64,000 nt of DNA. Origin: Nymphaea colorata (taxonomy: Eukaryota > Streptophyta > Magnoliopsida > Nymphaeales > Nymphaeaceae). The position numbers and the translations under genes were made by a program. Of the stretch, positions 15,965 through 57,100 are shown one piece after another; the first letter of the stretch is position 1; every line of letters begins with the position of its first letter. The notes beneath the pieces are model-generated. The model saw nothing but the letters and a program-made list of their open reading frames with translations. It searched no databases and was not told where the DNA came from. Location of the stretch: NCBI RefSeq assembly GCF_008831285.2, contig NC_045139.1:5616704-5680703 (forward strand). Direction: 5' to 3'.

Positions 15965-16355
15965 CAGATGAGAGTCAAGCTCAACTCGACTCGAAAGCTT
16001 GATCTTGGCTTGAACTCGAGTTGAGTTCTATAGAACTACCTCGAGCTCGACTCGACCATACAGGGTCGAGCTCTAGCTCAAATCATTTAATTCGTTTAAA
16101 TTGTTTATGTTAACCTGTCCCATTTCTTTTAAGTCGTTTAACTACTCAACCCATTTAACTCGTTAACTCGTTTAACTAATTCAACTATGATGAACCAGTT
16201 TTACATAGCGAGTCAAGCCAAGCTTAAAAACATTTTGAGCACAAGTTTAAGTTCGTGCTTGGCATGTTTATAAACAAGTCAAGCTTGGTTCGAGTTTTTT
16301 TTCGAGCAAGTTTGAGTTGAGCTTGAGTTGGTTCAACTCAGTGTCGAGCCCTATT
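15965..16355. mobile_element. decayed member of the GAGTCGAGCTCGAG repeat family
   Basis: Dense CTCGACTCGA/GAGCTCGACTCG words at both ends around an ATTTAACTCGTT-like core match the composition of the intact hAT-type element at 17351-17900. The termini are degenerate and no target duplication is seen. Confidence 0.5.
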
Positions 16356-17350
16356 TCAAAGTGAAGGCAGAAGCAGAGTAAGTAGTCCATAATACTCTCT
16401 CTTTCTCTCTCTCTCTGTGTGTGTGTGTGCGTGTGTGACTGTACATGTTTATTTTCTTTAAGGTTCTTAATTTACTCCCCAAGACAAGTAGGGTGATTTA
16501 TTGTTTACCTATGTTGCATTCAAGCTTTTTCATTCACAAGTATTAACTGAATTAAGAACAAAAAGGGTCTTTGCCTCATTGACCAATCTGATCACCTCTC
16601 AAACTTTGACATGTGGGTGAATGCCCCACAAAAAAGGACTTTTCATAAAGATGGGCCCAATATCATTTGCATTGGCAGACCTAGTAGACCCACATTATGC
16701 TGTCCTGTGAGGCACACGCTCATCACGCTTCACATAACAACAACCCCAATAATTCTTGTGTTCAGAAAGCACCTGGACATGAGATGATCCAAAGCTTGAC
16801 ATGTATACAAATTTAGATGGCTGGATGTGAAGCCCTTCTGGACATGCACTTTCAAATCAGCAAGAAGAAGAAAAGAGAGAAGAATTTCTTGATTTTTTTT
16901 TTGCAAAATGTTCTTTGCTTGCCCTAATGAGCCAAGGAAATGAGTTCAATAATGGATGTGAACTGGGCAGGCCACTGGCTGATATTTATAAAGTGCTTTC
17001 TCTTGCTCTAATAAGTCAAGATAAAACCCTCAATCAATGAATGTGAAATGGCAGGTCTTTAGTTGAAGGAAAAACGCCACATGGTTTCCCGGTCGGCCGG
17101 AAAACAACACTCAGTTTCATTTTTTGTGGCCAAAGAATGCTTCATGTGGGTCTCAAACTTGTTAAAGGGCCAAAGACAACAAGGTATTCTGCAAACCGGT
17201 CTTTGCTTTGATGGTAGGTTTACAAATTGAACTTGGTTTCTTATCTTTATCACACACAAAAAAACAAACAAACAAACAAAACAAAACAAAAAATCAAAGG
17301 ATAAAGAGAGAGATTGCATCTTATCTGCTTGAACCTTTGGGACCTTTGAT

Positions 17351-17900
17351 TAGGGGTGAACAACGAGTCGAGCTACTCGAGCTTGACTCGAGTCGAGCTA
17401 CTCGAGCTTGACTCGTTAAAGCTCGGCTCGTGAACGAGTTCAAGCCAAGTCATTTATTTAACGAGTCGAGCTCGAGTTTTTGAGTCGACTCGTTCAAATA
17501 ATCGAGTTGAGTTCATGCTCAACACGTAACTGCTGAGTCGAGCTCGAGCCTTAGTCGAGTTTGTCGAGCTTTAATCAAGCCGATATATTCAAATGAGTTT
17601 ATGACTTTGTCGAGCTTTAATTGAGTCGAGCTCGAGCTCAACACGTAACGATGAATATCAATTCTATTCAAACGAGTTTGTTGAGCTTTAATCGAGTCGA
17701 GCTCAACACGTAACGATGAATATCATTTCTAGTCAAACGAGTTTGTCAAACCTAATCGAGCCGAACTCAAGCTCAACACGTAACTGCCAATTCGAGCTCG
17801 AGTTCTTTTGGTCGAGCTATTCTTGAGCTCAAGGTTTTATTAGTCGAGCCGAATTTGAGCTGACTGAACTTGGGCTCGATTCGGCCTGTGTTCACCCCTA
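17351..17900. mobile_element. complete non-autonomous hAT-type element with 8-bp target site duplication
   Basis: The element begins TAGGGGTGAACA and ends TGTTCACCCCTA, a perfect 12-bp terminal inverted repeat. It is flanked by the direct repeat CCTTTGAT at 17343-17350 and 17901-17908. A TAGGGGTG terminus with an 8-bp duplication is the signature of hAT superfamily elements. The 550-bp interior has no transposase; it consists of iterated GAGTCGAGCTCGAG and CTCAACACGTAAC words in several copies. It is a non-autonomous element that depends on a transposase encoded elsewhere. The perfect termini and duplication suggest a fairly recent insertion. Confidence 0.9.
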
Positions 17901-21644: not shown

Positions 21645-21963
21645 TAGGGGTGAACAACTAGTGGAGACCTGTTAAAACTCGGCTTGTGAACGAGTTTGAT
21701 TCGAGTCATTTGCTTAACGAGCCGAGCTCAAGTTCATAATTCGATTCGTTCAAATAATCAAGTTGAGTTCGAGTCCAACACATAACTGCCAAGTCGAGCT
21801 CGAGCCTTAATGAAGTCGATATATTCAAACGAGTTTGTCGAGCCTTAATCGAGTCGAGCTCGAGCTCGAATTCAACACGTAACGATGAATACCAATTCTA
21901 TTCAAAAGAGTTTGTCAAGACTTAATCGAGTCGAGCTTGAGCTCGAGCTCAACATGTAACTAT
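21645..21963. mobile_element. truncated copy of the hAT-type element
   Basis: It begins with the same TAGGGGTGAACAAC terminus as the intact copy at 17351 and continues with CGAGTCGAGCTCGAG and CAACACGTAAC words. It stops after CAACATGTAACTATATCAG without the opposite TGTTCACCCCTA terminus. It is therefore a 3'-truncated relic. Confidence 0.75.
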
Positions 21964-22839
21964 ATCAGCTAAATCTTGGATCTGCTGGAACTGTATCAGC
22001 TAAAATTTCACTAATTAACTTTAACCCAACAGAATTAAAATCAAGATTCCGACCCAGAAAGAGATCCTGATCGCAAACATAAAATCATGTTCACAGCAAG
22101 AAAAAGATCCCAAAATTGCTTAAAGAAGATAATTAAACCCATTTTAGATGTAGAGCAGAAGGCTTATCAGATCGAGATCCAAAAGTTTCATGAGAAAATG
22201 TCCACATGTAACTAGGGTTCATACTGTAATATCCACTTCCACAAGACTGCTTAGTTACAAATCTGTATGGATCAAGGTGGAGCAACAACGGTACTTGGTT
22301 GTCCTACATATAAACCTGCTCCATTAATACCCAAAAGCTCAGGTCAGATCCAGAGCTGGCTGGATGTGACTTATCCAGAAACTGTCCTAGATCTGGATTT
22401 CTTTTCTGGGTGTGGTTCCAAACTAACTTTAATCCTTAGTTGCCTATGGAATGACCGGTCCAAGGCAGATTGTTCACGGGTTGTATGACCCAGGATCCAG
22501 AGTCCGGACCCTATTGGCAGTTCACTCAGTAACAGTACAGTTCACTTTTGGAGGTGAAAACTCATTCATACATCATGAATCCTTTGGTATCCGAGTCCAT
22601 TTTAATTAGATCGGGCAGTCTCATTAATTAGATCTGCAATACTGCAGATTGAACTGGATCCTTCTCTGAGATTTTATTCAATACGTGGATGTCCAGAAAT
22701 AGGTCGGCAACAAAGACCTTTACAGTGCAAAAGTAGAGAACTGCCATCTTTCACAGATAGTCCAGATATACATAAACATCAATTATTGAGTTTTTTTTTT
22801 TTGAAATATGTCATGAAAATAATTCTCTTCGTGTACAGG

Positions 22840-23215
22840 GTAGGGATATATCAAAATTGAATTGGACATCCTGAAAAATCAGATATACAAAGAAAAAAAT
22901 TAGTATCCAATTAAGAAATCAGATTTAAGAAATGACATATGATCAGATTTAAATTCAGATTCTGATATACATAAATCTCCAATTGAATTCAGATTTAGAT
23001 TAGGTACAGTTTTAAATAAATGTCCCAATCAACTAGATTCGGTTCAAAACTCGGATTGAGATTTAGATGTGAATATAAAAATGGGTTTCAAATCAGATTC
23101 GGATTGTAAAATTGGATTTAGATATATTTTCTTTGTTCATTTTCGACTCTGAATATAGGAATATCCAAAAGTGGACGTGATTAAAGGTATATGTAATTCG
23201 AATTCGATCCGTTGG
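22840..23215. repeat. AT-rich dispersed repeat of GATTTAGATT-like words
   Basis: Quasi-iterated GATTCAGATTTAGAT and AGAAATGACATATGATCAG-like words recur here and, in related form, near 54.5-54.66 kb and 63.48-63.86 kb. No termini or coding content were identified. Confidence 0.5.
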
Positions 23216-24344
23216 CATCTCTAACTTTATGATTAGCTAGGTTGTGTCCCCATAAAAGAAAACCCAATATAAGCTTACTTTACTTACTAACTGTCATGTG
23301 CTACTTATGCATATCCCTATATGCTAGTTAATGGTGTTCCCCAAACTTGTTGCTTCCTCAAATTTTGTATTCAGTTATCTCATCCTTTAGGATTAATGGG
23401 CATTAAGATCCGTAAACCCGAACGTTAATCGTAAGTTTAATTTCTCCGAAAACTAAGAAGGTGTGTTTAAACCTTCTAATTAAGTCGAACCAGTCTATCT
23501 CGCAATCTAAATCAAACAGAGAGACGAAAATATGAGGCGAAACTTCGAGGCCGGATTAACTCCCTAACACTAAAAAAGCACGAAATTAGTCCCTAATCTC
23601 CGGTTTTCATGTGAAATTTAATGTTTGTTAGCTCTACCATCCCCAGTAGTTAGTCTGGCCACGCTAATTATGTGCTGTTCCTTCTTAGAAAAGTTAAAAG
23701 AGGGACACTCCTTGTAGTCTACTAATCATGTGTTTGTTGGCTCTTATCATTATACGAACGATGCTCTTAACAGAAAAATGTTCCAACCAAAGCATAGAAT
23801 TAAGGCTTTTATATGGCCATCTAAGCTCCCAACCACAAACATCATGCCCCATCTTTATACATACACTTTTCTAACTCCATAAAATTAATTAATATAAATA
23901 AATAAAAGGGCGTTCTAGAAAAGTCATATCCTTTCAATAATTGAGAGCAAAAATTATATTTATTTATATATATATATATTTGTATTTATGAGACATGCCC
24001 CACAAATAATATTTGTTCACTGCACAAACGCTGCATCCGGTTGGCCAAAACGTTGAAGGGTGAGTTGTTAGGTGAGGAACAGGGACGGTGCATCATTGAA
24101 AGGGACAAGCCCCACGTTGGGTCATCTTCAACACTCCCTCCCCCTCATAATTGGGTCAATCGGCTTCGGGCCCTACAACTCGTCGAGGCCCTTCGTGTAT
24201 GTTAAGAGGTCGTTTGGTAACAGTAACATATTATTACTGGTGTAACATATTATTACAGTCTCCCGTGTTTTATGAATTTGCTCTCTTTTTTTCTAACATT
24301 GCTAATTTAGCAATGCAGCCACCAGCCTCAGGGTAGGAGGCAGG

Positions 24345-24732
24345 TAGGGCTGCTTAACGGGCTGAGCCAACTTGGGCTCGACTCAAACTCACTCGAAAAA
24401 ACTCTACTTGTACTCGACTCGTTTATAAACGAGCCGAGTTCGAGCTTATAGTGGTACTCAAAATGATAAACGAGTCGAGTACGAGTTTTAGGAACTCGAT
24501 TCGCAAACCGATACTTTATATAATATTGTCAAAACGGGTGTTATAAGTTACACAAGTTAATGCTTACACCAGTTGAACGAGTTAATGCTTATACGAGTTA
24601 ATGCGTAAACGAGTTAAATAGGTTAAACGAGTTGAGTTGAGCTCGAGCTTGTTATAAGAAGCTCGAGTTTTTTGAGCCGAATCGAGTCCAAGCTGACCAA
24701 GCTCGGGCTCGACTCTACTTTGTGCAGCCATA
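24345..24732. mobile_element. diverged relative of the hAT-type element
   Basis: It starts TAGGGCTGC and ends GCAGCCATA, whose reverse complement differs from the start at one of nine positions. The interior has CTCGACTCGTTTATAAACGAG and GAGTTGAGCTCGAGC words like the intact 17351 copy. The flanking octamers do not match, so the target duplication has decayed or the ends are slightly off. Confidence 0.55.
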
Positions 24733-30100: not shown

Positions 30101-32570
30101 AAAGACATTTAAAAAGAAAAAAGATAACTTTCATTCTTAAGAACTTGAATGTCTAATGCCATTTATTTTATTTTCTCTAAAGATTTGGTTTTATACGTTC
30201 AGTTTAAAATATAAATGTTGCCATCCTACAGATCCTCAAATGCCATCATGAAGCAAATACTTCCTCAGCATGTAACTTGGCAACCATTGCAGCTTTTCCG
30301 CAGAAAAGCTGTTCAAAACAAATTGCAATATGTTTTGTAGATGCAGACAAACACACATAAATAATATGTACAGCACCATCTTGATGTACCTTTAAAATAT
30401 GATAAAGAGCTCTTAAGAGAAAGAAAAAAAGTGTTAAACTTTTTCCTACCATTGAAAACTTGCGTCTCAAAACTTTGTTCGAATATATTTCTTAGCTGAC
30501 CGAGACAACTTTAGTCAGCTAAAACAAAAACTCGGAAGAAAATTTATCTTCAATTTCTCACGATATATTGGTCCTGAACATCCTTAAAGTTCTAGCCATT
30601 TGGTCACCGTGTTAACTCCTAACCACATACTTTTCCCAAGGTAAAGTGTCATCTACTGTGCAGTCCAAGTTGCTTTAAATGTCTCTCACAAATATTTTAA
30701 TAACTGTACTTAACATAGGGCTTTTAACCTGCAGCCTGATAGAGAAAAGTGACTGTAGTCTTTTGCCCCCACTTGGATGAATTATAATGTTGAACGACTT
30801 CTTGGGCAAATCCACAGAAAGCCACAGCTGCCATTTACTACCATGTGAGAGGAGACATGGCCACGAGAGCTATTAATTTATTACTTGAGGTATCAACTTA
30901 CGTGCTTCTGCTCATTTTGCCAGCTGCCATTGAGTAAATGGTGCCTGGGGAAGAAGACGATGCTAAGGTTGGAGAAAAATTAAAAAACTAAAGCTGGGGA
31001 ATTGGGAAATCAATGCATTTTTTGCTGCAGAGCTCATGCCCACAAGCTAGCAGATAAAGAGACTGAAGTTAAATTAAATGGGGAGTTGAGAAGACGATGC
31101 CTTGCTGCAGAACTCAAGAGAGTTGTTTCCTGAAATGGGTTTCCCCACAGCCTACGAAGCCATCACATGCATGATACAACTAAGAATGGTTGTACGCGGA
31201 TGTACTTTGTCCCTTGATTCAGAAGGAAATTATAAGGCCAAAGGTACAATAGTTTTGTAGCAGCTGGAGAGAATGAGGCTTACAGGAAAACTTTAATGCA
31301 GGAGAGGGGTGGTAGTTTGTTGAAAGGAAAAAAAAAAAAAAAAGAATTATAGCAGTCAATTCTCTCTCTTCTAGTTTTTTTCTTGTGAAAGGCAAAAGTT
31401 TTTGTTGGAGCCCTGGTTTTTGCCCTTAATTTCATCAATAAGCTTTATGTTTTGGAATTTCTAAGTTGGAGTGACCGGTTTATTAAGAACTGCCAAAGAA
31501 AGGCCTGAACTCTAGCTAATGGGAAAACTCAAATCTAAGATCGAGGACATGCAAACATGACCTGTAGAAATCTAGGTTGCTTTGATTCAGATTATCTGCA
31601 ATCGTAGGACATAGAACTTAGTTGAAGTTGGCAAAACCCAAAAAAAAAAAAAATGAAGAACAATACAAAGATACCTCTTTCTGAAGTTTCCAGAGAACTC
31701 TACAAGAATATCTAAAAACATCATGCCCAATTTTGAAATATTGGCAAAAAGTTGTCAGTCAGATGAAATTTACCAAATATAAAATACCATTGTCCAAAGG
31801 GCAGCAGCTGGAACCCAATAAAACATAAAAATTGGATCCCCAAGTATTTGTAATATCCCAGTTGTGATATTAACAGTCTATGATTGCAATGGCAAATAGG
31901 CCAATGGTACTGTATGGATCACATGACTGCACATATCTTCACCATATATATGTTTGACAATTATGACATGAAGAATATAAAAATGTGGTCATAAATGTTT
32001 GTAATATCCCAGTTGATGGGTTATTTTACACTGAATTATTAATGTAATTGCAGATGGGCTTATTGCTGCAATACCAGGCACATGATCATACTAAACTACA
32101 AGCTGCATTAAACTAATTAAATTTAATTAGATGATAAAAAAACTTGGTCTCATTCTAAAGAACCTGTAATTCCGCTAATAAGTGATTCGCCTATGATCAT
32201 CTTAGTGGGTCCGATACTAGTCAACTCGGACCAGATCGTGACATCCATATAATTTTATAGTCAGCATGACTTGGATATATAAGCTAATTGTCATTAGCTT
32301 TTCAGCTTATCACTTAGTTTTAAGTGTTCCAAACTTACTTGGATACCATATCTAATTGATTTATGAATGTCCTTTTCTTGTCCTCTTGAGGGAACAATGT
32401 GATGAAAAGTTAAAACAAAAAACAAAAACGCATCCAACTTTCGAATAGGTAACAAAATCATATCTAATTAATTTGAATTTATTTCATTAACAGGCTGACT
32501 TACTTGCAAAAGAGGCAGTTAATATTATTGAAATAAATTTAAACTTAGTGTATTTCGTTGGTGCCAATTT

Positions 32571-32573
<3 letters not shown>

Positions 32574-32641
<68 letters not shown>
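32574..32641. repeat. (TA)n microsatellite
   Basis: About 34 uninterrupted TA dinucleotides, the longest such array fully inside the window. Confidence 0.97.
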
Positions 32642-32648
<7 letters not shown>

Positions 32649-33122
32649 CTAAATGCCTCTAGCCTCTCACACATGGAGGAAACATGGCTCGAGAATTTCA
32701 CCTATGGAACTGAAATCAGCCAGTTAAGGTATATTGTCGAGTGAGTTTTTTTATATTTTAAAAACTGAAAATTGTCGCAAATAGTGCATTTTGTGACGCG
32801 TCAATTCATTAACCATGAGCATTAGTAATGGAATGTACTATTTGTAACACTTTTTAGCGCTGTAAAATGTAAACAAAAAGCCATCCGGCATTGGCTGGCT
32901 GATTCAATTTATGTGTGTGTGTGTGTGTGTGTGTGACTTGACTGTAAGTAGTTAATTTGTTCAAACTTGATTGATAGTTTACAAAATATCACATATCATA
33001 TTTTCTTATAAAAAAAAAGTAAATGACAATTAATAGTTCTAATCCCTCAGTCAATGAATCGATTGATTAATGGCGTAATCAGTTCACATGTGATCTTCAT
33101 ATTTATTTCTTTCATATATTCA

Positions 33123-33127
<5 letters not shown>

Positions 33128-33186
<59 letters not shown>

Positions 33187-33204
33187 TGAGAGAGAGAGAG
33201 AGAG
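33128..33204. repeat. compound (TA)n(GA)n microsatellite
   Basis: A TA run of about 33 bases passes directly into a GA run of about 44 bases with one interruption. Confidence 0.95.
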
Positions 33205-34231
33205 TTCATGCATGTGCATGCAGGTTAAATGAAATTCTATACATGTGGACGAGTGATGCTCACGCAGCCACGCTATTGTGCAAGTTAACTGCTGGTGACA
33301 TTACAATGCCCTAACTTCCAGTAAGAAGCTATTCTTGCCTGATAAATCAATTAATTATCAGTTGTTGCCGTCATGCCTATCTACTTTATAGTTTAATTCT
33401 TCTAGGAAATATTCTTCATATCAAATTGTTGGCTCCGTAGACATGAACGTCATCTGGCATCTTACAAGTAATTCTATGTCAGTGCATTATACGTGCCTTA
33501 GTTCATTATTTTATTTGAACAATTGCTCAAGAATCCCATTTAACTTAATCATTTTCTATTTTGTTAATGAATTTCTCTAGATATAATTTATGAAGAACTG
33601 AAGGATCTCTGAATTTCGACGAAATTTAGTTGTTGGTGCATATTCTTCTTTAAACTTGTCAGTGCATTCTTGAGGTCTTACGGATCTTTCCTACCCAATT
33701 AAAAAAAATAAATATATTTTTCCATGTTCACATGCAATTGAAATTCCTTTCCGCCTTCTGATTATGCACTCAACTAATTAATTAGTCGTTGAGGCTAAGT
33801 TTGTTTAAACTTCTCTAAAAAATTTGCAATTCTCAGCAGCAAGAAATTTCTTGATTTGCCAACATGATTTTTTAATCTAATTATCTGGTCAAAACCACAA
33901 ATTGATCTACTTCCATATTTCGTGGTCAATACCTTTGCCTAAAATAAGAATAATCTTTCTTAAATGAATTAAGTCAACTGATTAGGAAAAATTAAGGGTC
34001 CACGTATTTTTTGATAGGTAAGGTTCAAGAAAGCTCAAAACACAAATCCTTTTCAATCTAGACGTGGGTTTCTCAAGAAAGAGTTTGTTTTCATTTTCAT
34101 TTCCCACAAAATGAGTTTAGATTTCAGAAAGTTTTAACTCAACAATAAGTTCCACCAACAAGTTAAAAACATGCACTGCAGAGAATGTTTATTAATAATC
34201 TTAAGATATGATGCTTATCACATTCCTCTCT

Positions 34232-37925: not shown

Positions 37926-40900
37926 TTATGTAGGTAAGGTCCTAAGCAACTGAAGCGCCCGCATCCATTGTGGACCTTCTGAGAAAACTATTCTCCTCAG
38001 TACAGGAATTGCACCGGCAGCAACTATTGCAGCATGATTCTCACTATCCATGCTCAGATTATACAGAATTGCCAATCCGGCTTCTCGGGTTCTTTCTCCC
38101 CCTTCGTCAATCGCCTTGACTAGAGGGAATATGCCTCCTCTGGCAGCTATTTCTCTAGCATATTCAATCGCCCCTTCTGATATGATATGATTTAGTTCCA
38201 CAACAGCTTCCTCTTGTCCACCTGACTCTGAGCTCTCAATCTCTTCAATCAGTCTTGGAATGGTACCATGAAGAATTACCTCCTTGTTGATAGGGTTCTT
38301 AAGGTCCATGTTCGGACCAGCCAGTGATTCAAGTTTAATGAGGCATGCAGCGACCCAGTCCTTAGTATAAAGAGGGACATCAGATTTAAGTATATCATGC
38401 AGTAGACGTATGAATTTAACAGTGTCAATAGCACTCTGACACTGCTGAAGAGAAAGCAGCTTAACAAACAATCGAGAGGCAGCACTGATTGCACGCCCAG
38501 ATTCTTCTACTACTGCTGGATTTGGTTCCGGTGAGCCACTGACTGATCAAGGAGACAATGAGAAAATGGGCAATATTAGATAAATCAACTTAGATAGTGG
38601 ATGGAAATAATTATGAATATCCAAAAAAAAAAGCAGCAATAAAGAAGCTGAGGCCAAAGAGTAAAGTAGTCGAAGTAAAATTGCAAGAGAGGAGGAATTA
38701 CCGTAATCGTACATTCTGCAGATTCTACAGTAGGAAGAAATCTCTAATTTGGATATTTTTAATTGTTTAGGCATAAGCAGGAATTTTCAAACAGATTCAC
38801 TAAAAAAATCTTCATGAACCACAGGCTGCCTTAGCTTCCAGCAGACTCCGTAAACCATTAACTCTGATAGTTTGGCTCTCAATTACAACTTCTTTTAAAA
38901 AATTTGAAAGAAAAAGAAAAACTAAATTAATTTTAGAAAAGGCATCCATTTTTTTTACTGTTCCTCATTTAGTATGATATCAAATAATGATGATCCTACC
39001 AGATTCCTCTCAACCAATGTGGATGACACGATGCATGAACATTTTCTAGAACACAAGTTCAAGATTAGGTGTAACCCACTAATGTAGACAAGATCGTTTC
39101 GTCCCATTTTTTGAGGGGAGTTACTCCCTACAGAAGTCTTTCTGACCAACTTTTATTTTGCTCTATCAATAACCCCTTCTCAAGACTTCCTCAGTTTGAA
39201 ATCCAATAACAGACTTTTGTTTCTTTATCATGACACAATCTCGCGGTCATGATTTTATCACCTTTTCATGTCTTGTTCACTTAATCCATATCTTTTTTAT
39301 GACATTATTCATCTTGACAAATAAAATCTTGCATCCCCATAAATTATAAAACACAATATCGTAAACAACTATATGCATGGCAGGGGCCAGTCAAAATTGT
39401 AAAACGCAATCAGAATTGCATCTGGCCGTTTGACTAGTCAAGTAATACAAGTTGTTGGTCAAATGACTAGTAAAAGGCTGCCAGTCAATGTCGCTCTAGA
39501 AAGTAGAAAGACTAGTCAGTCAACTACATCAACTAGTTGGGACTTGGTAAGGTTTAACTTTTCAGCCGTCTTTTTCGTGTCTCGTGTGCTTTTTTTTTTT
39601 TCTCTTCATTTCAAACTAGACTTAGTTATTATATATTTGTCAGTAATCATGTAACTGTTATTATTTGTATACACTTTGAAATTAAGAATATATCTTCTTC
39701 TAATTCATACCTGTGGTTTGTTGATTATCTGATTATTATGTATACAACATTGAATTTTTAATGTATCATTTTGAGTCTTGAACTTGACAATAATACCACC
39801 TAAAACAACCTTTCCTAATGACCCGAGGGTCGACTTTGCTGAATCCCAACTTGCCCTGTAGCCAGCTTCAGTCCACACCTTGAAAAGGCCATCAATCAGG
39901 GCACGACGTTACATGAGATGCAGGTATATAAGTCTCTTGAGATTTCTCAAAATCTTCCATATATTACCAAGTCCTTTTCCTACAAACTGGCTGTCACCTC
40001 AACACGGCTGTTTGTTCTCGGTATATGTTTTTTTGTTCAACCCTTGATTACACAGTGTTTTAAATGTATTTTTATGATTGTTTGTGTCCACATGTGTAAA
40101 GATGCATGTGTCAAATACTCAAATTCATCATGGTCCTCATATTCACTTAGTCTGTATACACATAATATATATGCCTTAGACTGTGCTGCCCGATTTATCT
40201 GGGCATCTAAGATCCCTCTAGCTTTTTCTACCATTCTTATGTCATCTTCTGCAGATACAATCATATAGTTGCATGCATAATATTAAAAATCAATAAATCT
40301 AGGGCCTAGATCAGGTTTTGTAAAGGTTTTACAATTCACTGTTTTACTTTTCTCAGCTCATGAAATCTGCCCCCTAACATCAAATTTCATTAATTCTTTT
40401 CCTATATTTTTCAACATTAGCACATTCGTACAGTTAGATTTTCAAAAGGTTTCATGAAAGAAAGACACAGCCCAGCTGATGGGTGGCAAAAACTAAATTC
40501 TTATGTGTGTGTCTGGATACTGTGGATCAATCTGGTGACATTTTTTGTTCAATTGTTCTTGTTATTAGACCAGTGACGTCACTTATAAGGCTCTTAGGTA
40601 GCGTCAGATACTTACGATCCAGTCCAATACCTCTGATGTAACACACAATAAGTTATGATATGTTCAAAGTTTCAAACATTATTACTTTTTAAGCTAGTGC
40701 ACTTTTGTTCACCTTCCCTGTGGAGATTCGGAGAATGACTTTGATCAACTAGCAATTTTGAACAAAATAAGTCAAAACTAAATGAGTTTGTCAATAATAA
40801 AAAATGTCCTTCCGAAAGTAATAGCATTTCAAAGATCAGGAAAGAAAAGGAAATAATGCATGATCTTGGAAAGAGAACCGAAGTGAAAACTATAATGTGT

Positions 40901-43900
40901 TTGTCAATTATAAAAATGTCCATTCAAAAGTAGCAGCACCCTGAAGAACGAGAAAGAAAAGGAAATAAAATTTTAATATGGACGAACTTCGAAAGGGAAC
41001 ATAAAAATTTGATCCTTACAGTCAAATGGGAATTAAAAACAAATGTACTTGTACCATCTTTTCCTCGTTGAAGGAAAATTGCACTTAGTCCTGATTGAAC
41101 ATCTGCTGCAACTATTGCACTGGTATATGGTTCATCATCAGCCAGGTTCTCAAGAATGATGGCCGCCTTTTGTTGCAAATTAGGATTTTTTCCCTTTAAA
41201 ATTGCAACAAGTTTTGGAATAACACCGGATTCTAACACCTTTTCCCTTGGGAAAACAAAGAGACAACAAAAGATCAGCATGATTCTAGAGAGTAGTCTCA
41301 CTATGTACTTCTAATTTCATGTCCAAGTCACTTTTAATTTCAAGTCATCTTAGTTACTGACCTTTCCTAGTGCCTTTAATACATAACCCAAAAAATGAAC
41401 ACTTAAGACATTTTTTAACAGTTTGTCTACAAGACCATATTAATGGATCAACTGAGACTAATTGTATTTTACTGATTTGAACAATGATAAGTAAAGGCAG
41501 CGAAAGAAGATGGCAACTGATGACATCACATTGCTAATGATTATGATATAGCCGCCTAGACTTTTGTACTACTAGTGACAAACTACATGTGGAAAAAAAA
41601 AACCTCTATTAGACAACTTGGGGTTGCAGGTGGAGATGAAAAACAGAAAAAATCATGTAAACTGTATGCCCTCTGTTAACTTAGGAAAGGAAAACCTTTG
41701 ATATAAATTTTTTAATTATGGTATCAGAAAAAGAAAAAAATAGAACACTAAGAGAAACAGAAATTCAGATCAGTTGCAGATCAGGGAACTTAACAAACCT
41801 AAAATCTTCCTTTGATAAAGGCGTTCTGTCCACCTTCTCTCCCAAGTCAGAGGTGCCTACAGAACTTCTGCTCATACCATTTATTCCTTTCTTGACTCCA
41901 TGAAAAGACGCACCATCAAACTGGAAAATAGTCAAACTCAAGTGTTAAAACATACAGAGATGATGATTCTTCAAAAACCTAGCTCATTGGAGTGTAGTGT
42001 TTATGATATGGATTGACATCTAAAAACTGGAAGGCTGAAATTCAAAACTGAAGCTTCTAATAATTTTACCATTGATTTCATTTCTTTGACAGGATCAAGA
42101 AACCGAGAAACAATATCCAAGATCTGCATTTCAAATGTTTGTTGTTAGTAGAAATAAAGTTCAACTATGAAGTCCAGAGACTGCAATAAATTGCAGAAAG
42201 GGAAAAAAAAAGAACCTTTTCAAGCAAATCTTCAGATGTGTCATTTTCCACTAGAATGTCAACAAGCGTGTCCATGGCACCACAGGATGCAATTGCTTGG
42301 CATACTACATTGCTGCAATTGGAGCAATAGAAGTACAATATGTCAATATCTATAACAAATTTAAAAACTCAACTAAGTGCAAAAAAGTTAAAATCATATG
42401 CATTTTATAAAATCCTCTTAGAGATATCCCTAAAATGCTGCCTATAGTAAGAACTTTCTAAAAGCAAGCATAAACTAATCACAAAGTTGACCAGACATTA
42501 ATAAGGTGCTGGTAAAATCTTCAAACTATAGAACATATACCTGATTGATAGCTTCTCCAGTGCATGAGCAGCAGCCAGTCTTACAGCTTCAGCATCATAT
42601 TCTAGTAAGCGAACTAGGTTCTTCAGTGCACCAGCCTCCTTGAATAAAACACGCATGTGCTCATTGATACAGGCATCAGCAATGGATAGTGCGGCTCTCT
42701 CAAGAGCTGATACATCTTCAAGACCAAGTATTAAAACTAGACGTGCAACACCATCAATCCACGGTAAAAATGTTGACTGCTGCTTCATGGTAGGTTGTGA
42801 ATCAGGTATGCTTCCCTCTTCAGTGTCTATGGCTCCAAGTCGAGCCAGAAATTGTTGTGTTGTCCTTCCAACTATTGCATTCTTCTGTGCTTCCTCCAGT
42901 CTAGCATCCTCATCTTGAACATTCAGACCAAGAAGCAATTCGGAAGCACCAAATCTTGAAGGAACAGATGAATAGCGTTCAAATTCAGTCCCATCAGGCA
43001 AAGAAGGCCATGAACGGGAAGCAGGTGTAAGGGATTTATATGCTGCAGCACCAATTATGGGTACTAAGATAAGACCAGCCTCAACAATAAGAATTCTGTA
43101 GTAGTCATCTTTCGCTAGCTCCGAGAGGATATTTCTCGCTTCTTTTTTAACTACTTTTGACCCTTCATTACATTTTAAGATCTCGGCCTGAACAATGTCC
43201 AAGTGTCAGAAAGATAAAGTAAACAATTCTTGCATATCAGTGATCAATATATTAACTGGAGATTGCCAATAACTAACAGAAGGTATGCTAAGCACGTAAC
43301 TATCTTACATTCATCATAATCAAAATTACCATATTCATTACATAAAACTGAGGTTACCAAGTGTGTCAGCTCAAAGGTTATTGAAATTTCTAAATCAAAG
43401 AAGCAAATTTCCAAAGAGCGGTATAATATATTTGCTCACTATGCTCCTAAATATCCATTGAGAAGAACAAACCAACACCATTTGATTGTGTAGGAACCCA
43501 CATAACAAAAGAAGAATGTTTGCTTCAAAGTTCAAACACACACACACACATAAGTGAATCTGTAGCAGAGAATGATGAACATATGAAAATATGCCAGCCC
43601 TGCTTGCATACTGCTATAGAAAGATCAGATGGAAGCATAGGAATGACCATATCCAATATAATTCATTGCCATTTAGGATAAGGTATGCTGACTGGATTAG
43701 CAACTAGAGTCCAATTATAATTTTAACCTAGAAAGGTACAAATGAAGATCAGCTGAAACAAGGTCTACCGTCTGCATCATAATTAGGAGAAGAAAATAAT
43801 CTCATTCACCCACCAGCTTTAGAATGATTCCTTCTTCAACCATGAGACCATGATTACACTGACTCAAGGCCAGGTTTGCAAGTACTCCTCCCGATGCTTC

Positions 43901-45827
43901 CTTTACCTTGATGTCTTCATCATCAAGGCATTTGATAAGAGCAGGCAGAAGAACAGAATTTGATATCTTCACTCTAAGATGCTCATCAACAGACAAGTTC
44001 CACAAAGTGCATATAGCTTGTTCCTTCACCTGCTAAAAATAAATTAAGAGAAGTTAGCCACGGGAGGGGGCATTCATAACAGGCAACTGGACGAGCATAT
44101 TCTTGTGGAAGCATACATGTACCCATCTGTGTGTCTCTATATTCATATAGTATGCAAGCAAACGTCATATACCTCCGCACATACAACAGATCTACTCAAA
44201 AGACCAGTTATTTCTTCAATGGCTCCCCCTGCTGATACTGAAGTTCGGTACAAGTTGACTGCTGAAATGCTACGCAAGAGGCCTGCAGCTGCTTCACTTG
44301 TGGTTTTAGACTCCGACTTCAGAAGGCTAACAGCAAGGTTGATACAACCTGGAAATTTCATGATCTCATCAATGCATTCCTTTCCACCCAGCGAGTACTT
44401 CCAAAGAGCATTTATTGCTTGTTCTCGGTCAAGAGGATCATTGTCTAGCCCAAGCATTCTGACAAACAGGCCAACATACCCATCTTCAAGACGGCCTTTT
44501 CTGTTTTCTGATGAACCTGTCTCCTGAAATGGTATGTCATGTTAGCACAAAACCTTACCCTTTTCCCCGGATATACATAAACATCAAAAAGCAAAGAGAT
44601 GCTGGCATGTGTTAACGCAAGATCATAGTAGGCCCTATTCCAAGAAGTTAATTTTGTACAGGATAAACAAGGGTTAAAAGTATACAGGCCTAGAGACAGT
44701 TATAAATTCATAAAATTTCCGTTGTTTGTTTCATTGGAGACATCCAATAAAATTGAAATTGCATGGAGAAGATTAGCATCGCCCCAACACAATGATGCTT
44801 TCGTTTCAAGAACTTACAATCTGCAAGTTGCGCAAACGATGATTCGTTTGTTTTTAATTGTCTTATTTACGAACTTGTGCTTAATTAAGACCCTAAGGTG
44901 AGATGAGGTCCTCAGGAGCTCAAACCAAGTGGACCAGATATTAAGTATTTTCCTTGATAACAGACTCCAAGCTATAAGAAAATTTAAACCAACAGAATAA
45001 ACAGCAACCTGTTTTGCGGTTCTAGAGAACTGAGCTCGGCAACCCTCTTACTTATACATATAAGCTTCAATCTCAATTTCATTCATCTGAGGGCATATTC
45101 TGATGGAAGCCATGAAATCGCAAGTGTTAGATCACATCACCTTCTGTGCTCAAAACGCATATGAAATCATGTAAGCGCCCCACAACAACTATTAGTTTTC
45201 AACTGTGGTGCTCGCAAGAGAGTCGGACTAACATGCTGTAAAGAATGTCTCGGGAAGAAATTCAATTTTTTTTAGTAAGGGAAGAGCCATAATCACAAAA
45301 CATTGCTCAGACAAAAGATTTTTCGACCATAAAACAAGCAGGATGATGCACATTCGAATTCGTGCTCCATCATCCAATCATAAATGCATTATTTTCTCCA
45401 CTTTCTGAACAACATAAGAGGCAATTCGGACCTTGGAAAGATAAAAAAAATGGCACCACAAAAGAAGGGGGCAAGAACCACTAAGCAGCTTTGGCGCTTT
45501 GAGGAATAAAAACAAGAACGAGGAACGAAGAAGAGAGGATTAGATCGAGCTCACAAAGGACGGTGACGCTTGGCTCTCTGTTTCAAGAGTGGTACCATCA
45601 TCAGCAGAGGCGTCGAAGCGAGTAACGCCAACACGTCTACCACCACCAAAATCATGCTTTCTCCTGCAAAGAGAAGATCGACCCAAAATTTTGAGGTTGG
45701 TGAGAGGCCTTGGATAACGGAGTCTCTGCCTGGTGAATTGAGACAAAGTAGACAAATGGGAGGTGGGTTTCTGGTGGACGAAGAGATGGGGAGGCTTGAA
45801 ATAGGCTGCTGCAGATGAGTTAGCCAT
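37926..45827 (-). CDS. armadillo-repeat protein, plastid-type (At1g23180-like)
   Basis: Nine exons on the minus strand: 45827-45555, 44523-44173, 44029-43814, 43187-42541, 42312-42216, 42123-42070, 41920-41799, 41245-41055, 38542-37926 (stop TAA). All introns are GT-AG and phases agree, giving 855 residues. The first 75 or so residues are rich in Ser, Arg and Lys with few acidic residues, like a chloroplast transit peptide. The body is alpha-helical with armadillo-type units, for example EQAICTLWNLSVDEHLRVKI, KEASGGVLANLALSQCNHGL, QKAAIILENLADDEPYTSAI and EAGLAILYNLSMDSENHAAI. Length and order match, from memory, the single-copy plant ARM protein of the At1g23180 group. Such repeats form a protein-binding superhelix; the partner is unknown. 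Exon 3 is preceded by TAGCAG, a NAGNAG acceptor that could add one Gln. Intron 8 is about 2.5 kb. Confidence 0.92.
39428..39535. repeat. cluster of ACTAGT palindromes in the armadillo gene's last intron
   Basis: GACTAGTCAA-like words recur about four times (near 39432, 39465, 39510 and 39531) with intervening GTCAA words. The cluster is clearly non-random but has no recognised function. Confidence 0.5.
39785..40264 (-). pseudogene. unidentified coding-like fragments inside armadillo intron 8
   Basis: Two minus-strand stretches read like real protein. The complement of about 40264-40150 gives EDDIRMVEKARGILDAQI then NRAAQSKA; the complement of about 39905-39785 gives ALIDGLFKVWTEAGYRAS then WDSAKSTLGSLGK. 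They have normal amino acid composition and the same orientation as the host gene, but no start codon and no plausible splice sites linking them to it. They may be remnants of a degraded inserted gene. The family was not recognised. Confidence 0.3.
44728..44812 (+). pseudogene. U6 snRNA-derived pseudogene in armadillo intron 1, antisense to the host
   Basis: The segment GGAGACATCCAATAAAATTG, followed after a short diverged stretch by GAGAAGATTAGCATCGCCCC, matches the U6 spliceosomal RNA core (GACATCCGATAAAATTGGAAC and AGAGAAGATTAGCATGGCCCC) in order and near-exact spacing. The 5' stem-loop also aligns, with changes, from 44728. The catalytic ACAGAGA box is altered (CATGGAGA), the ISL region is diverged, and no U-rich terminator follows at the right place. 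It is therefore a dead copy rather than a functional U6 gene. U6 relics typically arise by LINE-mediated retrotransposition. Confidence 0.75.
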
Positions 45828-45972
45828 AGATGAGTGCCCTCGTCACTCGTGAGTAACTGGGTGGGAAAGAACGGCTTCCCGATATGATAGTGGGCGCGTC
45901 TTTCTGCCTCCAAATTTCAATCAGTAACACGATATCAGATTTCTTGCATCAGCACCCAAACAGACCTCCGGG

Positions 45973-46044: not shown

Positions 46045-47373
46045 ATTGTGATGTACCAAAATCACGACTTCTGGTTTCTGGAAGGATCTCGACAAATCGA
46101 GACTATGGAAGGTTGGGATCGGATGTATCATGGATCATCGTTTCTTTGGCTCTGTTGGATTGATAGAAAAAATAGGGGTCTGCCTTTTAAAAGATGTTTC
46201 AGAATCACCACATTTTTGTTCCAAAAAGCGTCGATTCATAATATAAAAACAGCATCTATAGTTACAACATATCTTTTAAATTAATAATATCGTTTAAGAA
46301 CAGGCTGGTTTTTCTTATGGAACACCATCTAAGTGTGAGTTCCTTAACATTTATAAGGTCGAGCGAAATGGACAAATACACGTCTGGTGCTGTAAAAATC
46401 ATTCTTAGAATCAAAAGCTTGCATAGGAAATCAGTTAAGTCGATTGGGAATAGGCAAAATATTAAAAATCTTTTTTTAAAAATCAATAAATATATAAACT
46501 CAAAATATTTTTCAATTGATTCAAGATGACATGTGACACTATTGAAACAGTTACCAAATTGAAATGGTTAGCTACTAATTCTATTCGTATTGACCTGTAA
46601 CATTGCACGCATTATGCATGTCCCGTGTTTGCATCGACTGCATTAAGCAAACATGCAAGTTTCAGAAATCAAACACCCTCTAAAGGGGTAGGTAACAGCT
46701 TTGGGACTTAAAAGTACCCATCTAGGTGAATGTGTTAATGGATCTCAGACTCGGATCATAATATAAATTGTTCATCCCGGAAAGGAGAAATTACGGTTGA
46801 ATCTGAACCTGAAATACTAATAGTTTTTGTCCGAATATAGAATCGAATGAGACCCTCCTATGTAAGCTTGAATGGCAGCAGAAACACAAAAAAGATTAGC
46901 TCTGGATCCAGTAAAAATGGTTGGAATACATGTTAAGAATGGCAGTTTTAAATTATATCTTTGGACGGGCAGGAGTTGTCTGGCATTTGCATGATATGTT
47001 GCCAAGTTCCAAACTGTACTCAATGGAAATATTGATCCAAATACAGTTAGAATGAGAATAAAACTAATCTGTTAACTTGGCATCTTTACTCGTGCTTCAG
47101 TGATCTGTTCCAAACATTGGAATCGGGTGTCTCAATATGCCAGATCCATCTGCAGATCTAGTTCTAATACGTAAGGCTAACTAATGAACGAATTGAGGAG
47201 CTCAATTTCTAGCTTGATCCTGTCCACCTAAAGATTCTGTACCCGGTATTCGCTTCATGTGAGACTCTACACGGATGACCTTTTGCCAGAAAATTGTATT
47301 CAGTATCATATGCTTATTTATTAAGCAAATTAAGTAAAAAAAGTATTAAAAAGCTGAAAATATCATGCAAATA

Positions 47374-47607
47374 AGATTTAGTGTCTGGCGTATCTGTCAG
47401 ATGTGAGTTTAAAAAATACCAATAGACCTTCTTCCTGCTTAGCTCCTTTACTTCAAAACATTGGCAGCTTGGTCTCAGCTCATGTCGGGCGCTAGCCATG
47501 AGCTGAGACCAAGCTGCCAATGTTTTGAAGTAAAGGAGCTAAGCAGGAAGAAGGTCTATTGGTATTTTTTAAACTCACATCTGACAGATACGCCAGACAC
47601 TAAATCT
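47374..47607. repeat. perfect inverted repeat, 111-bp arms, 12-bp spacer
   Basis: The left arm 47374-47484 is the exact reverse complement of the right arm 47497-47607, with no mismatch over 111 bases. The spacer 47485-47496 is TCGGGCGCTAGC. Beyond a 2-base bulge the pairing continues five more bases (ATAAG at 47370-47374 region, CTTAT on the right). A transcript would fold into a long perfect hairpin. No target duplication was found. It may be a young siRNA or proto-miRNA locus, a foldback transposon, or an assembly or cloning artefact; the sequence cannot decide. Confidence 0.95.
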
Positions 47608-48848
47608 CTTATTAACAATGTTTTACCTGGGAACGAAACGGACACTCGGTACTTAATTCTAAAAGAAGAACTTCCAACTTGTAGCTCTTTATGAAATTGT
47701 TTTAGAAAGAACTCACTGAAAGATGATTTGCAATAACCTTTCGAATATCAGCAGACAATGTAATGGTCTAGTTAGGTTATAAAAAAACATTTTTTTTCAT
47801 CCCTGCTATCTATGAATTCCTAAGTAAGTTGGACGAAATGCTTGAAAAGTGCAGCTTATTAATGTACCTCGAGAACATAATCAGGTAGTTTCATTCAAAC
47901 CAAGAGAAACTAACCCAAGCTTGAAGGCAGCCACCACTGTGCTCACTCCTGATCTGTACATCAACAGCAACAGTGAGACGCAATCCCAGACCTAAAACTT
48001 TGTAGACAAGAAAAAAGCACAATGAACACAAACTTGTTCCTGCGGCTCAATGGAACGAGGAGACAAGCCAAACAAATGAGTCAATGCAGCAAATATGATT
48101 CATTTATCTGGTGGAGCTGCAGAATAGATCGGACTAACACCAAAGAGTTGACCAAGTCCTGTCCAGGCACTCATCTAGCTCAGACCAATACCAATCCTTC
48201 CAAGCGCCAGAAGACTTGGTCCATTTGGGCGGCACAGTAAGCTGCAAAAGGTGCCAATGTCTTGGCCTTCAACTCTTGACCAGCTTGGACCCATTATGAG
48301 CATCTGGGAGCGCATGTGTACAAGGCCTATCCATCTCAAGTAGGTGAGTTACAATTCAGAAGTTAAGATCATACCACAGCAGCTATTCGTATACATAAGC
48401 AAGCAATGTAGATAAAATTTCTCAGCTGTTGACTGCGATTCACTTAGTTTTTCAACTATTTCTTAGCTGATTAAATATGATACCCCAAGCATCCAGAATT
48501 TTTACTCTTTAACAAATTACAAAACTAAGAAGAAAAACAAATTTCAGTCGCCGGGACAAAAAAATCCTCACCCTCTGCCCAATCCCCATATTTTTCATAC
48601 CCAGAAAAGGCTAACCGAGGAAAAAAAAGATCGGAAAAGGAAAGAAAAACTCTATGGGCACCTAGAAATTGCATGAAGTTAATCCTAGTTTCTGCAAAGA
48701 AAAGATGGTCAGACTTCATCTTCTTCGTTGCTGCTACAGAAGGCAGCAGAGGGAACAAAGAAGGAAGACCGGTGGTATACGCTAACATGACACATCATAG
48801 CATGCAGCCACTCTCCCGAACGTGTCATTTCCTGTTCCTTCAGCAAAT

Positions 48849-49865
48849 TCATATAGATTGAGGGGATCCAAACAGAACTGAGAGTTTCTCCCAGTCCCAT
48901 GAATCTGGATTTGTTGATGCAACGGCATAAACAGCAACTCCAACTGCAAGGGTTATTAGTAAGCTTGTCTTGACACAACCTCCACGGCTTGTCAGCCTTG
49001 CCAGTAAAGCTTTGCACAACTTATCTGCATCTTTAATCAAACCTATACGGTCTGCACCAGATTCCGCATCATTCAAGGCTTGCTCATTCTGCCGAGCAAA
49101 ACAAGACATCTTTATGATGGGAGAAAACTAGGAATCAGGCAGCTGCAAGAAGGGAGGGATGCATTATCAAGTTACCTTCAGCCTCAGATTCTTAAGTGTC
49201 AGTCTCATGTTTTCTAATGGGGCGAGTCTGGTAGAGTGTTGCTTCCATTCTTCAGAGAGTTTCGTAAGAACAACCACGCTCCGATCAATTTGTTCAAGGT
49301 ATACCTTTTCCTGTTGGCAATTTGAAATTTTGAAGTAATATCAATGTTTCATGACCGTATGACTCAGAAAATGTGAAAGATTAGAGAGAACAAATGTCAG
49401 AAAACAAACCCAATGCTTGTAACATTCAGAATTCTGAGATAAGCACCATATGAATATTCCAGCAGCTTCCCCTGATAGTTCTGGATTGTCTGTAAAATAA
49501 GGTTCCTAGGTAAGTTTCATGCAGATGGTACAGGGAAATGAATTTGCTTTTAAACTGTATGTTTAAAATTACAAGCCTTGAACCAGCCATGACATTGCTG
49601 GTGAGTGCAATTTGAATGTGGATTTCCTCAACAAAAAATAACATAATTGTGTTCAATCTCTCTGCATGAGAGAGTTGACAATAGAATATTAAGATAACTT
49701 AGATCCCAAAAAGCCATTCAAAATAGTAAACTTTCTCTTTATTAATATACATAGAAATTCTTCACTAAATAATACTCAAATATGTTCTTGGAATTATAAT
49801 TACCTGCCCACTCCGTTCCCCTTCTCAGTCATACCCCTTGTCTTTTTATCCATGCACGTGAGCAC

Positions 49866-52900: not shown

Positions 52901-54150
52901 CATTAAACATTCTATTTCAGGCCGACTTGAAAATTTTCTTGGGAAAACTGACTCCAAGAAATGGATAAATGGAAATGCATGCGAAAGAAATTTAGGAACT
53001 CAATAATCAAGATTTTGTGGAACAGATATCAATCTGTAACTACGCAAGTTATCATCGGCATCTTTCAGTCGATGTTAGTTCCTACAGGCATGTTGCACTC
53101 CATTTATCCGTACAACAGGGACAAGTGAGCACGCATCATTACGGAGCTCGATCAATCCAATTTCATAGATAAGCGGGTTCATCAAAGCCCACCATGGGAA
53201 ATAAAAAGATCGAAGCTTCTCTGTAATGCTTAACTGGCACAAAAAAACTGTACCAGAAGATATCACGATCACGTTCCAAACAACCATCACCCTGCAAGAA
53301 CTACAACTAAATTCGGAATTTGCATCAGAAGTAACTTCAAGAAATCGAAACCTATGCATGCACATGTTCTATTCACCAACAACAGCAGTTCCCAAATTCT
53401 CAGCAGCAATCGACTCACATCCACGATCTTCGAAACGGGAGATTCTTTGAACATCTTGGTCCATGGGAACTGAGACGAGCTGACCGCGGAGAACGCCCTC
53501 GCATAGTAATCTGCAAATCTCATCAGCTGAATATCCGGCGCATTTTGATATGAACCCTAATTCATAAACCCAAAAACACAAAAATCAAGACTTTTTCAAA
53601 GTCTACTCCTCCAGGAATCAAAGTTCCACAAATCCAAGACCAGAAAACGCATGGATCACGATAAACCGCTGGAAACGACAAGAAAGAACCATAGATCGAG
53701 ACACACGGAGATATCCACGAGGAAAGCCGAGAGATTTGAAGGGTCAATCTTGGAGGCAGCCTCTGCAACGGTGACCTTCGGTTTCTTAGCCTTCTTCTGC
53801 TTCATCTTTTTCTCCTCCGCGGCGGTGGCCCCGTTCGGGTGCGAATTCTCGGCGTCGCTGTCCTCATCGGAGGTCCCAGCAGCGGCGGCCGCGGCTGGCT
53901 TCGCGAGAAACTCGGCCTGAAGGGAAGCCTTCTGGGCCTCTACTACGCGTTTCCGGCGCTCCTCAGCGTGCTGCTCCACGGATCGGAAGACGTTTCCGGC
54001 CTTATCGCCGTTAGCACGGATCGTGTCTCCGGAGGTGGAATTCTCGGGCTTCGACTTCCGCTGGCGCTTGTGGTAGACGACCTTCTGCCATCCGTGATTG
54101 CTCTGGGAATTCTCGACAGCTTCCACATAATTCGCAGAGCTTTCCTCCAT
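48849..54150 (-). CDS. TMEM214/DUF2359 family membrane protein (At1g23170/At1g70770-like)
   Basis: Ten exons on the minus strand: 54150-53707, 53556-53419, 51963-51775, 50749-50612, 50526-50408, 50336-50204, 50112-49983, 49489-49410, 49310-49176, 49088-48849 (stop TGA). All introns are GT-AG, phases agree, and the product is 581 residues. The first ATG is at 54150; the upstream in-frame codon at 54168 is only GTG. The N-terminus has NHGWQKVVYHKRQRK, then an Ala/Lys-rich low-complexity linker, then PDIQLMRFADYYARAFSAVS with FPWTKMF. Later come FVLWGLDSIIADLVAHQG, KPVLLNGAVRKGERLVPP and the FIWCLSQNSECYKHW stretch, all typical of plant DUF2359 proteins. A C-terminal membrane helix lies near residues 543-560 (TSLLITLAVGVAVYAVAS). 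Family members are ER-associated; their plant role is poorly known. Confidence 0.92.
49867..49902. repeat. compound (TG)n(AG)n microsatellite in TMEM214-like intron 7
   Basis: A TG run passes into an AG run within the intron between exons 7 and 8. Confidence 0.9.
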
Positions 54151-57100
54151 CTTGAAAGTTGAAACCACAGAAAGAAGAGGAAGAAAAAAGAAAGAAGAAG
54201 ACGCAGAAGAGAAAAACGGAGAAACGCACGAGCTTTTATATCGCTACATTTGCGCTTCGCTTACCAAAATAGCCTCGTCATTTATTATATACCTACAGAG
54301 TATTTTTATTATCTCTATCTTACCATGAATTCCTTTAAATATCATTATTTTATTATAATTGATTTTAACAAAAAAAAAATTGTACATGTGGCTCTGGAAG
54401 ATGGGATACTTGTCTTTTAAATAGGTAAAAAATTTCAAATTTTATTATTTCGATTATTTTAGTGAATAAAAATGCATCCCCTTTCCTCACTAATGTTGAC
54501 GACCCTATTGACGATATTCGATTGAACTGTTCTAAAGAAAATTAAAAAAATTAAATCGAATACATTTTATAAACAAAATCAAATTGGACTTTAATTTAAG
54601 AAATGACATCTAAATGGATTCAAATTCAGTTTCAAATAAATATTCAATGGATTTTTTAATATGATAAAAATAATGGAACGCGGTTAATATCCAAAAAGTC
54701 TTTTAAAGATTGGCCGCGTAAATTCGTTTTCAGTAAAAATGTTAAAAAAAGAATAAAATAAAAAAAATAAATGGTGGGGTATGTTGGGCAATAAGTGAAA
54801 AGAAGTGGACATTGTTGGGAGTCCAAATATGAAATCCAAAGCCGCCACACGTCAAGGGTGACCAGATCCGATTAAGGCGAGGATCCACGTTCTTTCCATT
54901 TTCTCAAAACTAAAATTTGTCATTTTAGATTCACCGGAATCAATTATCCGTCTTTCATGGGTCCCCGGTTCGGGGCAGAACTGCTGACCGGTTCGATCTA
55001 AAATCCGATGGAGATTCCCCTCTTGGTCCACCACTTTTCGTTAGGAGTCCATAATTTATTCTAAATTGGACATTTTGCACCTCTTTTTAATGTATTCAGG
55101 AAAACCGCTTAAAGCTTAAAAAAATTTGCTGCTTACTGGCTGAGACAGCGAGACTGAGAGACTTCTGCCTCCTACTTTTATTAAAACTGAATGAAAGAAT
55201 ACAAACAAATCAAGAAAAACTAGAAGAGATCGCAACAGACCCACTCAACAGAGACCATATGTCATATTTCATCCCAAAGATTAAAGCCTTTCCTCCCTTA
55301 GGTAAGATCTAAATGCAAACTTCTTTTATCTTTTCAATTATTCCATTTATATGGAATAAACTTGAAACTAAGTCAGATATTACATTTTAAGGAATGTTCC
55401 GTAATGATTGAAGCTCACTCTTACACCAGGCTCAAGCTCCTGGTTTGGTAGATCTCAACGTGCTCCCTAACTCTTCTTTCTCTTAAGAGAGAAGAAAGTC
55501 AGGGCAATTTTACTGATTAATTAATTGTCTCCTTTATATGTCTTTTGAAGATTTTTCTCAGACATTCATCCATTCTCCCTCTTACGCGACCCCAATTTGA
55601 AATGTTAAATCAGCTCTGCTACCAACTTTCACAATATGACTTAAGATACACGTGACCCCAATTCGAAATGTTAAATCAGCTCTCCCACCAACTTTCACAA
55701 TACGAACACACTCTCCACAGCAGGTTCAGGCTCCTAGTCTTGCAGGTCTCAATCTACCCCCTAGAAGCTTCAATTCCTCCTTTGAAATGAATAAAAACCA
55801 ATGCATTCTACCTCCTAACCGACCACTTAATTTGTATGCTTTTAAACCAATACATTTTACCTCTTAACCGCCTACATAATTTGTATGTTTTTAAATATTT
55901 CTCTTCATCTTCGATATGAGACTAAACTTTCACATGTTTATACTTACTCCTCAGGGTAATTCTGATTCCAAAAACAAATCAGAATTTAAAATGTCTGCCA
56001 CCAAACTGCCCATCAAGAAATTGGCTGCATTCCTTCATATTTAACTCTAAATGAAAACATTTAGCTGACCATTTATCATACCAAAATTTAATCATTCCTT
56101 CTCCAATTCTCTAGACTGCTTGACTAGACCAATGTCTTTCCATTCAGGGGCGAAATCAAGATTTTCTTTAGGAACAGGCCGACAGTCCAACCTCTGAATT
56201 TGGGTAGGGCCAACTGAATTCAAATACAAAAAAAACCATGGTGTAATTAAAAAAAAAGTATTTTTTTCATTGGCCGGGGTGGATCTATGGCTTAAGCTCC
56301 CTCCCCCCTGTTTCCATCTCGGACAACTCCTCCCCAAAACCAAGAACTTCTTTTGTCCCCTTAAACCATTTGCCCTTTCATAGCATTTACCGACAACAAG
56401 TTTGACGCAAAAAATAGAAGTGCAGTGCCTGTATTTGGCATCACAGTAAAAGAAGTAGGCCTGAAAATGAAAGGTTTTTCAACCGAATGGAAGCGATACG
56501 GATCGGTTCTCAGTGAGACGAGTCGTAGCTGGTCCGGTGTTGGCTCTAAGAACGTGTACGATTTGGAGCCTTGACCTTCGCTGGGACTGCATTCTGACCC
56601 ACCCAATCTTCATCGGATCCGGTAAGTAGGATCCGGATCTTCGGACCGATACCGGGTCTTACCTAACCAAAAAGGTAGATGATCTCTCTTTGGACCTTTG
56701 ACTTGGAATGGGTCAAACCAAGCCAGCAGTTTTTTATTTAATTTGTCAAAACTTTTTGAAAAAAAAAAAGTTTCAATTACGACAACTTAAAATCTTGTGG
56801 CTAATGCTTTTTTTTAATTTTGAGAGAGAGAGAGAGTTCCTCTTATGTATAAAGGTTGTTTTCTGTGTCGTAAACGATGCACTTGCTATACTTCAACTTG
56901 CATATTGATATTTTCCTTTTGTCTCTCTTGCAGATTCCGTTAATGTGTTTCTTCACCAATTCATGTGACTTGATGCCAATTACAAATGTTAAAAATTTTA
57001 AAATATATATATATATATATATATATAAAGTATTTTACAAAGTAAAAATGAAAGAAAAACATGAAATGTGGAAGTTTTAAGTTAACTACAAAATTGAATG

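Follow-up and report, generated by a model that had tools for sequence, protein, structure and literature searches.

A hairpin in the genome of Nymphaea colorata, made of two perfectly paired arms around a short spacer, is probably the product of one recent inverted duplication made in place by template switching or fold-back priming. It lies in a window of 64,000 nucleotides, the whole stretch of DNA that was analysed (C2:5616704-5680703, within an assembly whose 783 contigs total 407,766,735 bases), and its parts are listed in Table 1 together with open frames of the neighbouring genes. The first-pass annotation had described a perfect 111-bp inverted repeat with a 12-base spacer, and comparison of the two arms bears this out, with 111 of 111 arm positions paired, 100% reverse complementarity, and no differences. 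Extending the inverted repeat without gaps gives 128 nt at 94%, in which the additional 17 columns are flank. Each arm is closed by CATG, on either side of the spacer TCGGGCGCTAGC, and which arm is the original and which the copy cannot be told from the sequence alone. Nine of the 12 spacer bases are G or C, as against 36% G+C in the neighbourhood, and 16 of the 2,223 12-mers within the surrounding 2.2 kb are as G+C-rich; the spacer could be original sequence, or it could have been added during the switch. We note that GCTAGC is contained within the spacer (47485-47496).

A perfect repeat of 111 bp is far beyond chance expectation. We surveyed 264,000 bases, made up of the window and a further 200 kb of its chromosome in 20 stretches of 10 kb, with every piece scanned separately, for perfect inverted repeats with arms of at least 12 bp and spacers of at most 5 kb. 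A total of 3,875 pairs was recovered, of which 3,636 are of low complexity and were set aside, including 1,455 with arms of at least 25 bp and 392 with arms of 21 to 24 bp; every set-aside pair with an arm of at least 21 bp has a complexity of 0.23 or less on a scale of 1. Among the 239 pairs that were kept, the hairpin at 47374-47607 is the longest (111 bp), and the runner-up has arms of 20 bp. The predicted RNA fold of 47357-47624 is similarly extreme on the two strands, at -213.8 kcal/mol (plus) and -214 kcal/mol (minus), where shuffled sequences average -60 and -59.6 (z of -31.1 and -32.0, respectively), and none of 200 shuffles folds as well as the hairpin on either strand.

Table 1. Parts of the hairpin and open frames of the flanking genes, in window positions
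Feature	Position	Strand	Remarks
Left arm	47374-47484	+	111 bp; exact reverse complement of 47497-47607
Spacer TCGGGCGCTAGC	47485-47496	no strand	12 bases, 75% G+C
Right arm	47497-47607	-	111 bp; inverted copy of the left arm
Open frame, likely first exon of ARM-repeat gene	45540-45842	-	putative ATG near 45827; itself without Pfam match
ARM-repeat gene open frame	44143-44541	-	Pfam Arm, below cut-off
ARM-repeat gene open frame	42498-43205	-	HEAT_2, below cut-off; resembles PDB armadillo chains
ARM-repeat gene open frame	37926-38546	-	Pfam Arm, above cut-off
Open frame, likely last exon of other neighbour gene	48849-49127	-	
Open frame, looks like first exon of other neighbour gene	53656-54243	-	

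The hairpin is intergenic and is flanked by two minus-strand genes. It is located about 1.55 kb upstream of the putative start codon (near 45827) of a gene with ARM repeats and about 1.24 kb downstream of the stop (near 48849) of the other neighbour, a putative TMEM214/DUF2359-like gene. The ARM-repeat gene appears to extend down to about 37926, as judged from a predicted start codon and a predicted joining of open frames, and one of its three scanned frames passes the Pfam cut-off. No Pfam family is at or above the cut-off in the four open frames scanned of the other gene. The earlier description of both neighbours as housekeeping-type thus stands in part: Pfam and PDB matches point to ARM repeats in one of them, and the other lacks Pfam confirmation across its four frames. 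Open frames across the window as a whole match the Arm, F-box with FBD-associated LRR, Myb, and LpxK families of Pfam, a gene content that suits a flowering plant.

The locus has no visible relatives in its own genome. An arm together with six spacer bases matches only its own two copies across the assembly (E <= 0.001), the whole hairpin has no place but its own within the 407.8 Mb (E <= 10), and the surrounding 1.9 kb finds only itself and the hairpin's own reverse across the assembly, with no second similar region (E <= 10). Because the arm, the hairpin, and the 1.9-kb region each fall at one place, neither a parent gene nor a transposon family nor a second copy is seen, and the parent gene or other copies that the first-pass annotation had proposed looking for in the same genome did not emerge beyond the locus. 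The search skips very common words and scores only the best first-look candidates (one per search here), such that it could miss a repeat present in many copies or a parent that has diverged strongly. A parent inside the window was also considered, and the next-best match to the arm there (E of 0.11, 66% identity) was taken as chance; across the window and the survey stretches, the best ungapped 40-base matches to the arm elsewhere are 27 of 40, in stretches L019 and L013. Words from the arm have no matches in viral_contigs and none in genome_contigs, as expected for plant DNA.

The hairpin likewise reaches the threshold of no known RNA family. Rfam covariance models identify no family at the gathering score within the window, and the best match below threshold reaches 53.2 bits against a cut-off of 80. 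The nine sub-threshold matches come from five miRNA families with different names, of which four hit both strands and the fifth the plus strand only; since all five match the same stem, the matches say only that the stem is long, and we judged them non-specific. No tRNA genes were found. A coding fragment was also dismissed, as the 37 codons over which one frame of the right arm stays open are nothing unusual for that length, and the arm matches nothing else. A scan for bacterial-type promoters and terminators, which is ill-suited to plants, returned 1 and 0 sites, compared with averages of 2.0 and 0.6 in shuffles.

We favour in-place reverse copying because the perfect arms, the sharp edges, the tiny spacer, and the single place fit one event. 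During replication or break repair, the end of a strand would have folded back and paired near CATG-TCGGGCGCTAGC-CATG, or switched over to the opposite template, and the polymerase would then have copied about 111 bases backwards before the strand resumed on its own template, so that the 12-base spacer came to lie between two perfect arms. Both this polymerase mechanism and the recency of the duplication are what we infer from the present structure. The CATG match at the spacer, only 4 bases long, may have been copied along with the arm instead of having been there beforehand. De novo miRNAs reportedly arise from template switching as well. The locus has the form by which template switches are recognized, a perfect reverse-complement copy that adjoins its source and has sharp edges. 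Template switching is described as often generating perfect inverted repeats in great apes (PMC7954356), and as creating new hairpins, microRNA loci included, in an account of primate microRNA genes (PMC8794818). The largest template-switch-like pattern mentioned in the available part of that account is up to 59 bp (PMC8794818), so that 111 bp is long by comparison and counts against template switching. The hairpins in the available portions of the two reports (PMC8794818; PMC7954356) are likewise perfect local reverse-complement copies with sharp edges and in single copy, whereas they concern microRNA loci, rRNA, and great apes, and ours is a plant hairpin of 111 bp that is known from its present-day sequence alone.

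Perfect arms had been regarded in the first-pass annotation as a sign that the repeat is very young or maintained, and the absence of differences in 111 pairs, together with the sharp edges, fits that expectation. If the neutral rate is put at 7e-9, 2e-9, or 1e-9 per site and year, zero changes in 222 sites limit the age to at most about 1.9, 6.8, or 13.5 million years, respectively, limits that hold unless conversion between the arms resets the differences. Such arm-to-arm conversion could keep the arms identical, and youth is thus not proven.

Several other origins need to be weighed. An artefact of assembly or sequencing, with a fold-back or chimeric read taken into the consensus and a real chromosome that is one-armed, is unlikely: perfect arms, a very short spacer, and a single copy are the shape that a fold-back read gives, but such a read must return to the next true base and be favoured by the consensus, and to either side of the hairpin the assembly carries on with unique sequence that reaches a gene. 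A foldback or MITE-type mobile element whose terminal inverted repeats make up almost its full length would share the two long arms, the short centre, and the AT-rich surroundings, and about 68% of the gene-near inverted repeats of Arabidopsis are given as likely TE-derived in the available part of a review (PMC12595863). The MITEs near genes that it treats are likewise short inverted repeats less than 3 kb from genes (PMC12595863), but the hairpin differs from them in that it occurs at one place in 407.8 Mb (E <= 10, in a best-candidate search that skips very common words) and in that no duplication of 2 to 9 bases abuts both arm ends. The foldback element proposed in the first pass is therefore unsupported as a mobile element, and we consider it very improbable. 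No shared word of at least 4 bases abuts both arm ends either. TA adjoins the left arm end and a second TA lies two bases past the right arm end, which speaks for an element, and a TA target-site duplication displaced by two bases, which would have been added, is possible. TATTAA is present in both flanks, 24 bases away from the left arm end and 2 bases away from the right one, and we take this as chance.

It is also rather unlikely that an older quasi-palindrome was perfected here, whether by template switching or by arm-to-arm conversion. The change from a near-perfect to a perfect inverted repeat is the traditional outcome of template switching (PMC7954356, in its available part), and TATT, two bases beyond the right arm, matches the left flank if two bases are skipped. 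The similarity nonetheless stops sharply at the arm ends. Compared outward from those ends, the flanks have a best local score of 10, which is reached by 298 of 300 shuffles, and an anchored score of 3, which is reached by 25 of 100; similarity past the arms is no better than in shuffles, and thus no older, longer imperfect repeat is visible. That the hairpin is a selected small-RNA locus, either a proto-miRNA or an siRNA hairpin, with perfect pairing kept because it is useful, is similarly doubtful. The exceptional RNA fold of both strands and the position between two genes would suit such a locus, as would the hypothesized origin of MIRNA loci from inverted duplications that at first pair perfectly (PMC12825306, as far as its text is available), but there is no parent gene or other copy to imply a target, no Rfam family is identified at the gathering score, and sub-threshold matches to five families are as expected of any long perfect stem.

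We therefore return to a single inverted duplication by template switching or fold-back priming as the preferred reading, and note that the hairpin is most likely without selected function. A transcript crossing it would form a perfect RNA duplex of 111 bp, which Dicers of the siRNA type (DCL2/3/4) would cut into mixed siRNAs of 21 to 24 nt, and these siRNAs would perhaps methylate the hairpin itself. Transcribed endogenous inverted repeats are reported to be processed by DCL2, DCL3, and/or DCL4 (PMC12825306). In Arabidopsis, 634 of 885 inverted repeats are within 3 kb of a gene, and about 486 of these 634 make 24-nt siRNAs, according to the available portion of the review (PMC12595863). Guided by these figures for gene-near repeats (PMC12595863), we put the production of some siRNA in some tissue at somewhat less than an even chance; with about 68% of the Arabidopsis gene-near repeats likely TE-derived, the siRNA rate may be different here. 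A useful effect on a neighbouring gene would be highly unlikely. If the hairpin is transcribed, it would resemble plant proto-MIRNA loci and IR71 in having a perfectly paired stem that serves as a substrate for DCL2/3/4; IR71, however, yields dsRNA of about 3 kb and makes siRNAs, in the available text of PMC12825306, whereas the hairpin is known as sequence and no founder gene was found.

Taken alone, the hairpin is a sequence curiosity and a clear-cut case of a kind already known. New small-RNA genes in plants are described as usually coming from inverted duplications, often of their target genes, or from MITEs (PMC12825306; PMC12595863, both in their available parts), and a perfect single-copy hairpin without a visible parent lends itself to a clean test of a third route, in which replication switches template within non-genic DNA. 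A copying accident of this sort could seed a small-RNA gene. That the hairpin is already a plant small-RNA locus at birth, derived by one template switch from non-genic and non-transposon DNA, founderless and making siRNAs, is an outside chance.

Some smaller features of the locus and the survey are also of note. Immediately beyond the left arm, 16 bases (47357-47372) have an inverted match about 360 bp leftward, at 46985-47000, with 15 of 16 bases matching and 13 consecutive bases exact. An exact inverted match of at least 13 bases outside the hairpin is seen in 4 of 200 random controls, and this match may have arisen by chance or record a further template jump. The third longest of the kept repeats, at L019:6466-6580, has perfect arms of 19 bp (TTAAGGCAATGGGAACAGT) with a 77-bp spacer, and is perhaps a small MITE or a hairpin. 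The inverted-repeat list of the window is dominated by long AT and AG microsatellite runs at 32567-33218. Short elements of the CTCGAGCTCGACTCG / ACTCGACTCGTTTA type are present in both orientations in the window, at 16004-17777 and 21940-24649, and in another survey stretch (L012:518-696), and are probably fragments of a dispersed repeat family.
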